Assembly (NCBI GenBank): GCA_025210735.1
Contig: JAOARD010000064.1
Coordinates: forward strand, 1-64,000
Source of the DNA: Bacteroidales bacterium
GTDB taxonomy: Bacteria; Bacteroidota; Bacteroidia; Bacteroidales; UBA6680
DNA length: 64,000 nucleotides
Direction of reading: 5' to 3'
The first letter of the stretch is position 1. Each line of letters opens with the position of its first letter. Below the pieces are notes generated by a model, which saw nothing but the letters and a program-made list of their open reading frames with translations, was not told the origin of the DNA and did no database searches. Shown here in pieces: positions 611-10,488 of this stretch. Made by a program: the position numbers and the translations under genes.

Positions 611-631
611 TGTAAAGCTATGTGTTTAAAG

Positions 632-664
632 AGGCTGTCCTTTAATTTTAGGACAGCCTTTAAA
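632..664 (+). terminator. Intrinsic terminator after the T9SS protein gene
   Basis: A perfect 10-bp inverted repeat (AGGCTGTCCT / AGGACAGCCT) with an 8-base loop lies at 632-659, followed by a short T-rich tail. It separates the plus-strand gene from the convergent peptide genes. Confidence 0.8.
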
Positions 665-704
665 CTTGTATATTAAAATCTATATAGTAGTATATAAAAT
701 ACTA

Positions 705-941
705 TTACATAGGGAATGGAAAATATCCACCATTAGGAACACAGTCGTCACCATTTCCTTCATATTGTCCAGGTATATCTCCGTCAGGACATAACTCGAA
801 ACATGAAGCATTATGTCTGTTTCCGTTTGTGTAACAGAAACATTTGCAATTTGCAGGAGGTTGTAGCTTTCCGCCAGTTACACTTTGTTGCTCTTTTTTG
901 CTAAGTTGCTTAGCACCTTTTAAATTGGTTAACTTTTTCAT
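705..941 (-). CDS. Double-glycine-leader cysteine-rich peptide precursor 1
   Basis: 78-residue precursor. Residues 1-24 form a leader ending LSKKEQQSVTGG, the double-glycine pattern that C39 peptidase domains cut; Bacteroidota natural-product precursors of this kind start MKKL..L..AK.LSK. The predicted core (about 54 residues) has six cysteines, three packed as CKCFC, then one and one around a HNASCFELC stretch and one near the end, and finishes with a glycine/proline/aromatic tail. It is a close paralogue of the peptide encoded next to it and lies downstream of the C39-like/VKOR/thioredoxin gene on the same strand. I infer a disulfide-rich secreted peptide (bacteriocin-like or signalling); activity is unknown. 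Confidence 0.85.
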   Translation of the reverse strand: MKKLTNLKGAKQLSKKEQQSVTGGKLQPPANCKCFCYTNGNRHNASCFELCPDGDIPGQYEGNGDDCVPNGGYFPFPM

Positions 942-1006
942 TACTTTGGTTTTTAATAAATTAATATTACCCGGTATTTTTCAGACCATCGGGCTTTAGT
1001 CTGTAA

Positions 1007-1258
1007 TTAGTCTATTGTTGGATAAGTTGGTAAAGGCTCATATCCTCCATTAGGATAGCAGTCATCTGTATTTCCAGGATATGCTCCAGGAATAGAACCA
1101 TCGTCGCATCTCTCAAAACATGAAGCGTCATGTCTGTTTCCGTTTGTATAACAGAAACATCTGCAATTTGCAGGAGGCATCTGTTTTCCTCCTGTTACAC
1201 TCTGTTGCTCTTTTTTGCTTAATACCTTAGCATTACGCAAATTTTTTAAATCTTTCAT
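1007..1258 (-). CDS. Double-glycine-leader cysteine-rich peptide precursor 2
   Basis: 83-residue precursor with the leader ending LSKKEQQSVTGG, identical over its last 12 residues to that of its neighbour. The predicted core keeps the six cysteines at the same spacing (CRCFCYTNGNRHDASC, then one C at +5 and one near the end) and differs mainly in the linker and in a longer C-terminal tail. Conservation of leader, cysteines and the YTNGNRH motif with variation elsewhere points to a recent tandem duplication. It lies between the first precursor and the processing/oxidation gene, all on the minus strand. No dedicated ABC exporter is visible in the window. Confidence 0.85.
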   Translation of the reverse strand: MKDLKNLRNAKVLSKKEQQSVTGGKQMPPANCRCFCYTNGNRHDASCFERCDDGSIPGAYPGNTDDCYPNGGYEPLPTYPTID

Positions 1259-1365
1259 TAGTAATAATTTAAAAAATCAATAATCCCCCGAACTAATTGT
1301 AGCTGTCGGGTTTTCAGCCAAAATCTATGGCTTAATTGCAATGTGTCAGGTTCTGGTTTTTTGTT

Positions 1366-2988
1366 TTATACTTGCTCTACAGTACTGTATACAAGTTGTT
1401 CGTTTAACTCTTCAATAATATCCTCAATAAAGTAACTAAGCTCATCTCTTTGGTACTCTGTAGGAAATGAGCGACCGTTAACCAGTATCTCCGGTGTAAA
1501 CATAATATCATTTGAATGGCACCACTTCTTATGTTTTATAAGAACATTAATGCCTGATGTGTCAGGACCGGTCAGTCGGCTGTCTAACCATTTAGATTTA
1601 TCATCAATATAATAAGCCTGATCTAAAGCACGAATAAAGCTCTTCTCAGATTCGTTATTATATATATCAATAAGGTGCATAGCAATGCGTGTATCTACAC
1701 TGTTTAAATCACTGATATTTACACTGAATCTTATATTTATCTGTACTCCGTTGTCCCATCTCTTTAGCAGATCGGTAACAATTCGGTGTGCCTCTTTACA
1801 ATGCCCGCAAAGCGGATTTGTAATAAGTACAATCTTAACAGGAGCACTATTACTTCTATCTCCAATAATTATATCAGTGGTATTATATATATTGGTGTCT
1901 ACTACAGGTTTACTGTTTATCAGAGACTTAAATATGTCATAATTCTTCTTAAACTGTGAATGATTTATACTTAACTCACGATAATCCTGAACGGTCTTTA
2001 ACAGAGGTTGTATAAAATACCATATTACAGAAACAGAGATGAGACTAAATAATAAAATGGAACTGTCATTTATAATATTCTCAGGTATAAATGATAAATT
2101 ATTAACTGATATTACACTAATAGCCTGAGTCCATAATACAGCAATTACACTCAGACATAACGGGCACCATTTCTGTACAATTATACGCTGATAATATATT
2201 GAGAACATTGTAAAAGGTATAACCGATACAGATATCAGTGCAATAAGATTTGAATTAGGACTGCCTGTAAAACCGTATATTATCCACGATAAACATACAG
2301 TTGCAAAATATACTATACCAATATCACTTAATCTTATATTCTCTGAGATTCTTGATCCTTTAGAGTTTAGTACATCTGTACAGCTTGTTTTTTTGTTTGT
2401 ATCGGCACATAATTTATTAAGCGTATCTGATTGCACTCCAATTTCGTGCTGCACTATTAATGAGCAGACTACAATACCCACTACAGAAAGTATAAAATGT
2501 ATATAATGAAACAGCGATACTCCGTTTATAACGAACAGAGTAACAATCATAGCTCCTGCTAAACCAATAAGAATTTTACTTATTACAGACCTGTTACTAC
2601 TCTTTATATCATAACTGTCCTCATCCTCAATAACCATTACTATACCAGACCATATATCGCAAAATTCATCTACCGACAGGTGCAATGAATCTTTTGTGTT
2701 GTGAGTTACTGTTACTCTGTTGCCATTTAACTCTACAAAACAGAAATGCTCATCGTTATTATATCTGCAATGTGCAATAAATGTTGATGGTAGTTCCGAA
2801 ACACTATCTCTGTCTGTGGACAACTCTACAGCAATACTCTTTATACCCATATGCAATAAACCCCCTGTCATAGAGTGTAAACTAGGATAGGATGGATGAC
2901 ATTCTAGCTGAAACTTTAACTCCTTCTCGTCAATTTTAATGTTGTTTCTCTTTAATAGTTGTTTTAGTACAGATGTTAATTCGTCCAT
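1366..2988 (-). CDS. C39-like / vitamin K epoxide reductase / thioredoxin fusion protein
   Basis: 540 residues with three modules. Residues 1-115 resemble the peptidase C39-like domain of Bacteroidota (ECHPSYPSLHS.TGGLLHMGI, with C30 and H81 in DEHFCFVE). Residues about 135-335 are a multi-helix VKOR domain with a C194..C203 pair and the WCPLC active-site motif (C275, C278). Residues about 365-530 are a DsbA/thioredoxin-like domain with NPLCGHCKEAH (C394, C397). Family knowledge: VKOR fused to thioredoxin makes disulfide bonds at the cell envelope. The C39-like part may bind or cut the double-glycine leaders of the two six-cysteine peptides encoded just downstream, so the protein is a good candidate for their oxidative folding. 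Whether the C39 part is catalytically active is uncertain because the usual C39 motif is altered. Confidence 0.85.
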   Translation of the reverse strand: MDELTSVLKQLLKRNNIKIDEKELKFQLECHPSYPSLHSMTGGLLHMGIKSIAVELSTDRDSVSELPSTFIAHCRYNNDEHFCFVELNGNRVTVTHNTKDSLHLSVDEFCDIWSGIVMVIEDEDSYDIKSSNRSVISKILIGLAGAMIVTLFVINGVSLFHYIHFILSVVGIVVCSLIVQHEIGVQSDTLNKLCADTNKKTSCTDVLNSKGSRISENIRLSDIGIVYFATVCLSWIIYGFTGSPNSNLIALISVSVIPFTMFSIYYQRIIVQKWCPLCLSVIAVLWTQAISVISVNNLSFIPENIINDSSILLFSLISVSVIWYFIQPLLKTVQDYRELSINHSQFKKNYDIFKSLINSKPVVDTNIYNTTDIIIGDRSNSAPVKIVLITNPLCGHCKEAHRIVTDLLKRWDNGVQINIRFSVNISDLNSVDTRIAMHLIDIYNNESEKSFIRALDQAYYIDDKSKWLDSRLTGPDTSGINVLIKHKKWCHSNDIMFTPEILVNGRSFPTEYQRDELSYFIEDIIEELNEQLVYSTVEQV

Positions 2989-9849: not shown

Positions 9850-10488
9850 ATGAAGAGTTTAAGTAAAAGAGCACTGAAGTTTCTCGAATCTAAAGAACGC
9901 GAAAAGATAGATTTAACTGAAGAGGAGATATCAGATGTCTTTAGAAATAACAAAATTGAAGCTACGCCTGAGCTGATAGACTTTGAACTGAATTTTGGCG
10001 GTTATATATTTTATTCAGGAAAAGAACCATTAAGGTTTGGGTTGATTAATGGTGGTGGTTATCCATTTAATACAAAGTTAGCAACGGTAGAGTATGATTT
10101 ATCAGACGATAATAATTACCATTTCAGTTGTTGTAAAACAAATTGTCAGATAGATTTAACACTTGATAGCAGAGGTCTCTTTTATGAAGATTACGAGGTT
10201 AAAAATTCATCGTTTTATAAAACTATTGAGGAGTTTGCTATTTGTGAAGAGGCTTTTAATTCAGGAATGAACATTGTATTTCATAACATGAAACTTAAAG
10301 AAGTAGTCTGTCCTGATAAAGAGTCTGGTTTTGAGTTAATCAGATCTGCATCAGATGATATCTGTAAGTGGTATGAAACTGATAATATGTTCTTATGTAT
10401 CAGAGATGGACACCTTACATTGTTGGGGAGAGATGATAGTGAATTATCAAATGAAGTTGATAGTATAACTGCAGATGATATGTGGTAA
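9850..10488 (+). CDS. Immunity-like protein, paralogue of the one at 13466
   Basis: 212 residues. Shares with the protein at 13466-14137 the start (LS.RA..(F/Y)L....R), a PE.IDFE..FGGY or KEFLKFQTLYSGY motif, a middle strand block, and the FY.TIEE(F/Y)A or FRKLIEEYAF motif near residue 120. This is a SUKH-like or immunity-domain pattern, though I cannot assign a subfamily. The last bases before the following micro-ORF repeat look like the worn end of another repeat copy, so the repeat abuts this gene directly. Confidence 0.65.
   Translation: MKSLSKRALKFLESKEREKIDLTEEEISDVFRNNKIEATPELIDFELNFGGYIFYSGKEPLRFGLINGGGYPFNTKLATVEYDLSDDNNYHFSCCKTNCQIDLTLDSRGLFYEDYEVKNSSFYKTIEEFAICEEAFNSGMNIVFHNMKLKEVVCPDKESGFELIRSASDDICKWYETDNMFLCIRDGHLTLLGRDDSELSNEVDSITADDMW

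Follow-up and report, generated by a model that had tools for sequence, protein, structure and literature searches.

A C39-like/VKOR/thioredoxin fusion encoded upstream of cysteine-bearing double-glycine peptides in Bacteroidota: a candidate leader-guided disulfide-forming system

Gene content of the locus

The window, which is the whole stretch of 64,000 nucleotides that was analyzed computationally, corresponds to positions 1–64000 of contig C24 of its genome. Three genes are transcribed from the minus strand in the order 540-aa fusion protein, 83-aa double-glycine (GG) precursor A, and 78-aa GG precursor B. The initial annotation had described two duplicated six-cysteine GG precursors and a fusion of a C39-like domain, a VKOR and a thioredoxin (Trx) domain; the corresponding open reading frames were found exactly where it had placed them. 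The features of the unit are as follows.

611–704, minus strand: strong hairpin at the end of the unit (folding energy -25.1 kcal/mol; z -5.44; none of 200 shuffles as good)
705–941, minus strand: GG precursor B, 78 aa, core of 54 aa with six Cys
1007–1258, minus strand: GG precursor A, 83 aa, core of 59 aa with six Cys
1366–2988, minus strand: C39-like/VKOR/DsbA-type thioredoxin fusion, 540 aa, six predicted transmembrane (TM) helices
2614–2988, minus strand: C39-like domain of the fusion (residues 1–125), PCAT1 peptidase fold, protease Cys absent
2527–2586, minus strand: extra N-terminal TM helix (residues 135–154), taken from the helix list of the AlphaFold2 model, preceding the first VKOR helix
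2089–2517, minus strand: VKOR domain (residues 158–300) with the loop pair C194/C203 and C275-x-x-C278
1405–1914, minus strand: DsbA/ScsC-type thioredoxin domain (residues 359–528) with C394-x-x-C397 and T498-P499

Precursors A and B are 76% identical, and each possesses a 24-residue leader ending in SVTGG. The cores are acidic; they contain 4 and 3 Lys plus Arg residues and 8 and 6 Asp plus Glu residues in A and B, respectively. The sister species within the genus (G001; loci L009/L044, Bacteroidales bacterium UBA6680) has all three genes in the same order. Compared to the sister, 74 of 83 residues are identical in peptide A (dN 0.063, dS 0.93, dN/dS approximately 0.07), 74 of 78 in peptide B (dN 0.029, dS 0.46, dN/dS approximately 0.06), and 388 of 540 in the fusion (dN 0.174, dS 1.97). 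At the protein level, the peptides are more conserved than the enzyme. The maintained gene order and the low dN/dS values of the peptides indicate that the reading frames are not due to chance and that the genes are real. In a third genome of the genus (G002), neither the fusion nor a peptide was found.

For the peptide, which the initial annotation regarded as possibly cysteine-knot-like, the predicted structure is a poor model with a mean pLDDT of 54.8. The two peptides scored 18.4 and 16.9 with TIGR04149 (NCBIfam, cut-off 25) and 22 and 15.5 with PF14406 (Pfam Bacteroidetes precursor peptides, cut-off 25), and thus reached neither threshold; Pfam matches to Adt-1 and LcnG-beta were below cut-off as well. 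When nine related peptides were scanned against NCBIfam, none scored above any cut-off. In agreement with the initial annotation, no immunity gene adjoining the peptides is visible in the list of open reading frames.

The hairpin at 611–704 is probably a two-way terminator common to the unit and to the plus-strand gene ending at 610; it was not among the matches of a consensus scan. The start of the contig cuts the plus-strand gene (2–610), so that just the C-terminal end of its T9SS-sorted product, with cadherin-like/Ig-like repeats, is present. Hairpins are weak in 1259–1365 (z -1.69) and 942–1006 (z -0.87), and a promoter scan found 18 matches compared to 18.7 expected.

Association with cysteine-bearing GG peptides and with an exporter

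A search in 393 genomes of the order yielded matches in 16 genomes at 22 places; larger stretches were taken for 12 of these places, plus three more. Scanning a genome collection at the species level returned 99 relatives, and the best 80 of the 99 were made into loci. Near relatives and the sister species (L044) are among these loci, which are not independent. The titles of these best 80 name Bacteroidales, Flavobacteriaceae, Saprospiraceae, Chitinophagaceae and other Bacteroidota. In plasmid records, related proteins are mostly annotated just as "vitamin K epoxide reductase family protein".

GG peptides were detected by means of a self-made regular expression, and four of the 80 loci with less than 300 bases downstream were dropped from the downstream count. 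A GG peptide with at least two Cys, located on the same strand and starting at most 1 kb downstream of the fusion, was found in 68 of the remaining 76 loci (from the best 80 of 99); none lies within this distance in the other eight. Comparable peptides occur at most 1 kb upstream of the fusion in one of the best 80 loci, and on the opposite strand, at any position, in seven of them. The number of Cys is even in 230 of 249 distinct cores (4 Cys in 107, 6 in 103, 8 in 16, and 2 in 4 cores) and odd in 19; after clustering of the cores at 45% identity, it is even in 120 of 131. Even numbers are to be expected from paired disulfides. The initial annotation had proposed that secreted GG peptides have a disulfide-forming system of their own, and had named as evidence against it a failure of peptides and VKOR fusion to co-occur in other genomes. 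They do co-occur: 68 of 76 loci have the peptide immediately downstream of the fusion, and the proposal is supported by this arrangement.

With 15 peptides, L066 contains the largest array among the loci. In L066, L063, and L090 (Tenacibaculum), 10–15 divergent GG peptides have near-identical leaders and very different cores, and these arrays show signs of diversification, in contrast to the conserved pair of the window. In Parabacteroides distasonis (L149, NZ_OY725766.1), the fusion is followed by a 59-aa open reading frame, a DUF4369 protein, a LanC-like protein, two glycosyltransferase-like proteins and a PCAT; this is a possible cluster for a disulfide-containing and sugar-modified peptide in a gut species. 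A plasmid of Spirosoma oryzicola (L152) carries the fusion, two glycosyltransferases, a six-Cys GG peptide (9972–10160), a PCAT and HlyD. In L150 (6568–8113), the C39-like domain and the VKOR-Trx part are annotated as two overlapping reading frames, which reflects either a frameshift or a true split. A second, partial VKOR/Trx-like reading frame adjoins the fusion in L034 (10835–11389); it has stops in the wider frame and is perhaps a decaying duplicate.

In the genome of the window, Peptidase_C39 has three matches, namely one PCAT on contig C50 and two fusions. The C50 locus encodes the PCAT, HlyD, a paralogous fusion (27% identical) and two four-Cys GG peptides. The earlier statement that no exporter is in view therefore holds for the locus; the genome as a whole does encode one. 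The notion of a self-contained system, which had also been put forward, was rejected: The C39-like domain contains no catalytic Cys and is thus not the leader protease; processing and export need a PCAT, and the only PCAT of the genome is located on another contig. The simplest assumption is that this single PCAT probably exports the peptides of the window in trans. With an assembly completeness of 97.7%, a gene may have been missed. A scan of genome contigs with one protein gave 15 candidate stretches, none of which was confirmed.

The initial annotation had advised a search for PCAT-type exporters near the pair in other genomes. A downstream stretch of 6 kb or more is available in 66 loci (from the best 80 of 99). 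A PCAT is in view in 43 of these; in the other 23, which include the window's sister and related Bacteroidales, none is in view. In each of the 21 genomes behind 22 of these 23 loci, one or more strong C39 matches fall in frames of 702–762 aa, which corresponds to a PCAT by size, as judged from the C39 part without the ATPase part. The sister species, to which the 23rd locus belongs, has one PCAT-sized frame of 742 aa. PCATs export bulky modified peptides, and a folded core of 54–59 residues is therefore plausible as cargo. Near the four-Cys GG peptides of C50 (L013, 4346–8349), several proteins of approximately 290 aa with signal-like N-termini and similar openings are encoded, which are candidate partner or immunity proteins.

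Domain architecture and predicted orientation of the fusion

The fusion scores above the Pfam cut-offs for Peptidase_C39 (39.2 bits), VKOR (PF07884; 54.6 bits, curated cut-off 27.5) and Thioredoxin_4 (29.9 bits). An AlphaFold2 model based on 46 sequences has a mean pLDDT of 85.8 and a pTM of 0.63. By means of VIA-align, residues 1–125 were matched to the PCAT1 peptidase (Z 14.5, 123 aligned, rmsd 3.0), residues 158–300 to Synechococcus VKOR 4nv2 (Z 13.1, rmsd 2.8, 135 aligned), and residues 360–528 to ScsC 5idr_C (Z 17.5, rmsd 2.5, 160 aligned); the VKOR domain also matched human VKOR 6wv3 (Z 12.9). The table of matches consists mostly of Trx and C39 folds, and the absence of other folds from it carries no meaning. 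Conservation was deduced from alignment A4, which comprises the window protein and sequences from 45 of the 80 loci, picked for full length and diversity. The CxxC and the loop Cys pair of the VKOR (PF07884) are present in 46 of 46 fusions, and all six redox Cys (194, 203, 275, 278, 394, 397) are invariant. Judged from these residues, the disulfide relay of the fusion is intact.

The protease Cys of the C39-like domain was absent from all 15 fusions that reach its column in an alignment with the genome's own PCAT, a sixteenth being truncated; alignment A2 contains 14 of these 16, with the truncated L040 and the cut L043 excluded. In A4, it is absent from all 30 rows reaching the column. The other 16 rows begin past this column, and in them the part from the likely start Met to the match is free of Cys. 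In L096, one Cys stands two columns beyond the protease position. The column of the protease His is occupied by His in only six of the 46 fusions. A function as leader protease was rejected because neither the 15 nor the 30 sequences reaching the column have the catalytic Cys. Since the C39 fold has been kept and the catalytic Cys is gone, we infer that the domain is a leader-binding pseudo-protease. According to the structure match, the C39-like domain of HlyB likewise has a degenerate C39 fold; it is used for substrate binding, and it is part of an ABC exporter, unlike the domain of the fusion.

The structural match to VKOR begins at residue 157–158, and in the model a confidently predicted helix (135–154) stands before it. 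With six TM helices, the C39-like and the Trx domain would have to be located on the same side of the membrane. Lys plus Arg residues average 10.7 near the C39-like, CxxC, and Trx ends compared to 1.2 in the opposite loops, with the same sense in 46 of 46 fusions. The ten residues preceding the CxxC are more positive than loop 2–3 in 44 of 46 fusions, with two ties; this pattern was also found in 11 of 11 further fusions, which include the window protein and its paralogue again. As a control, 32 of the VKORs without a C39-like domain on the loci retrieved were used: Three of them have the fusion-like pattern and 29 the opposite one (Fisher p approximately 1e-15, not corrected for relatedness). 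Four VKOR-like proteins without loop Cys, which were set apart from the controls, all have the usual pattern, and in the alignment Synechococcus VKOR carries positive charge in loop 2–3. The three C39-less VKORs that share the fusion-like charges (L127, L137, L175) are possibly further inverted VKORs.

Another family of the order (f26) has a match in 66 of 149 genomes. Most of its frames comprise 333–361 aa and are too short to accommodate a Trx domain. For this family, 32 Trx-less loci were examined; L025 and L239 are the same place, and L217 was excluded as it is identical to L026. The charges of these C39-VKORs have the fusion-like sense in 32 of 32 cases. In 30 of the 32 loci, the gene immediately upstream, on the same strand, encodes a short thioredoxin, mostly of 97–100 aa. 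In 27 of 31 of these separate thioredoxins, the Trp of the WCxxC motif is already residue 21, too close to the N-terminus for a signal peptide to precede the fold. The gene that follows downstream codes, in 26 of the 32 loci, for a leader-like mini-protein; nearly all of these mini-proteins have no or one Cys, and the split branch may serve another substrate or job. The unit of signal-less thioredoxin, Trx-less C39-VKOR and short leader-like protein is seen in L024–L026 and L218–L246. The short proteins of these units contain a motif like LSPLELNxxRFSxKHTVLTP, and each looks like a leader retained without a core.

The extra TM helix and the reversed charge bias, neither of which is mentioned in the initial annotation, change the likely place of disulfide formation. 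On the basis of the positive-inside rule, helix parity and the gene neighbor, i. e. the extra helix, the swapped charges and the apparently signal-less thioredoxin of the Trx-less relatives, the C39-like domain, the VKOR site and the thioredoxin most likely all face the cytoplasm. A precedent for a cytoplasm-facing VKOR is the enzyme from Aeropyrum pernix, which, in work by Hibender from 2017, is said to act in two compartments; unlike the fusion family, it is archaeal and comes without a peptide system. Hatahet and Ruddock have reportedly engineered inverted disulfide enzymes.

Proposed mechanism, alternatives and relation to known systems

With moderate confidence, we regard the fusion and its peptides as a leader-guided disulfide-forming system that acts before export by a separate PCAT. 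The dead C39-like protease domain would grip the GG leader of the precursor, and the thioredoxin domain would oxidize the cysteines of the core. The fused VKOR would re-oxidize the thioredoxin and hand the electrons to quinone. The oxidized precursor would go to the separate C39 exporter (PCAT), which would cleave it after GG prior to secretion. Once secreted, the mini-proteins probably serve as bacteriocin-like products or in signalling. With regard to the compartment, we lean slightly towards a cytoplasmic leader-directed disulfide synthase, in which an inverted quinone-coupled VKOR, a leader-binding pseudo-protease and a thioredoxin would locally beat the reducing cytosol. Such a synthase would correspond, for disulfides, to the leader-guided lanthipeptide synthetases and would, in the same reading, serve hypervariable mini-protein arrays across Bacteroidota.

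The main rival explanation, which we consider rather unlikely, assumes a VKOR that is oriented as usual: The C39-like domain would be periplasmic together with the VKOR site and the thioredoxin, and the peptides would be oxidized during or after export, as the thiol oxidoreductases of bacteroidetocins or BdbA/BdbB of sublancin are thought to act. Known bacterial VKOR-Trx enzymes work outside the cytoplasm, the periplasm is the ordinary oxidizing place, the best structural matches of the Trx domain are periplasmic ScsC/DsbA proteins, and HlyD-linked export could meet a periplasmic oxidase. However, the 125-residue N-terminal domain would then have to be exported, and it has no visible signal peptide. 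Moreover, the charges would be on the wrong side in all 46 fusions, opposite to 29 of 32 other VKORs, and the separate thioredoxins of the Trx-less relatives start at the fold. It is highly improbable that the cysteines serve another modification, i. e. thioether formation or metal binding, given their even number in 230 of 249 cores and the VKOR/Trx partner. No enzyme of this kind was recognized beside the peptides of the window (reading frames to 9 kb, neighbors partly scanned), although the leaders weakly match Bacteroidetes modified-peptide families, of which the NCBIfam one is named rSAM-modified, and the Parabacteroides locus adds LanC-like and glycosyltransferase genes.

We consider it highly improbable that the fusion acts in immunity or quality control, or that it is a general oxidase of the envelope merely adjoining peptide genes. 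The lack of a visible immunity gene beside the peptides would fit this explanation, whereas the catalytic Cys conserved in 46 of 46 fusions, the nearly constant position directly upstream of GG peptides and the presence of two fusions in two GG-peptide loci of one genome argue against it. In addition, the bacteroidetocin thiol oxidoreductase conferred no immunity, according to the extracts of PMC6671954.

The closest known systems are the bacteroidetocins and the sublancin-type glycocins; the comparison drew on extracts of PMC6671954, PMC10352776, PMC4336743, PMC6405829, and PMC12453122. As described in the extracts of PMC6671954, bacteroidetocins (class IIf) carry four Cys behind a GG leader and come with a dedicated thiol oxidoreductase and a PCAT. 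Deletion of the thiol oxidoreductase weakens the toxin, an immunity gene was not found, and Bacteroides are said to be without general disulfide machinery. The GG leader, the Cys-bearing peptide, the dedicated oxidase, the C39 exporter and the lack of a detected immunity gene are thus common to both systems. In contrast to the 15-residue leader and the 42-aa mature peptide with four Cys of bacteroidetocins, the precursors of the window have 24-residue leaders and cores of 54–59 aa with six Cys, and so differ in all three respects. Instead of a separate 5-TM protein and a thiol oxidoreductase, one C39-like/VKOR/Trx fusion is encoded, and the exporter is located on another contig rather than adjacently; neither a PCAT nor a 5-TM gene lies directly beside the peptides of the window. 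In sublancin and related glycocins, a leader precursor, a peptidase-type ABC exporter and dedicated Trx-like and DsbB-like enzymes (BdbA/BdbB) are found as well. According to the extracts, however, the latter are separate proteins, a glycosyltransferase is added, the oxidase has no fused C39-like pseudo-protease, and a reversed orientation is not described. The Synechococcus VKOR-Trx fusion (3KP9/4NV2) combines a VKOR fold with a C-terminal Trx domain like the protein of the window, but contains neither a C39-like domain nor the extra first helix. The general idea of a dedicated oxidase for leader peptides is already known. A literature search, whose coverage mostly excluded subscription papers, found no paper on a C39-like/VKOR fusion, and for the C39-like/VKOR/Trx architecture, its breadth and its apparent inversion, no description was found in the literature searched.

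The proposed system would account for how Bacteroidota produce a large number of secreted mini-proteins with disulfides that have gone unstudied. A truly cytoplasm-facing oxidase would break the rule that bacterial structural disulfides are made outside the cytosol, and would constitute a natural portable tool for the folding of disulfide peptides in the cytoplasm.
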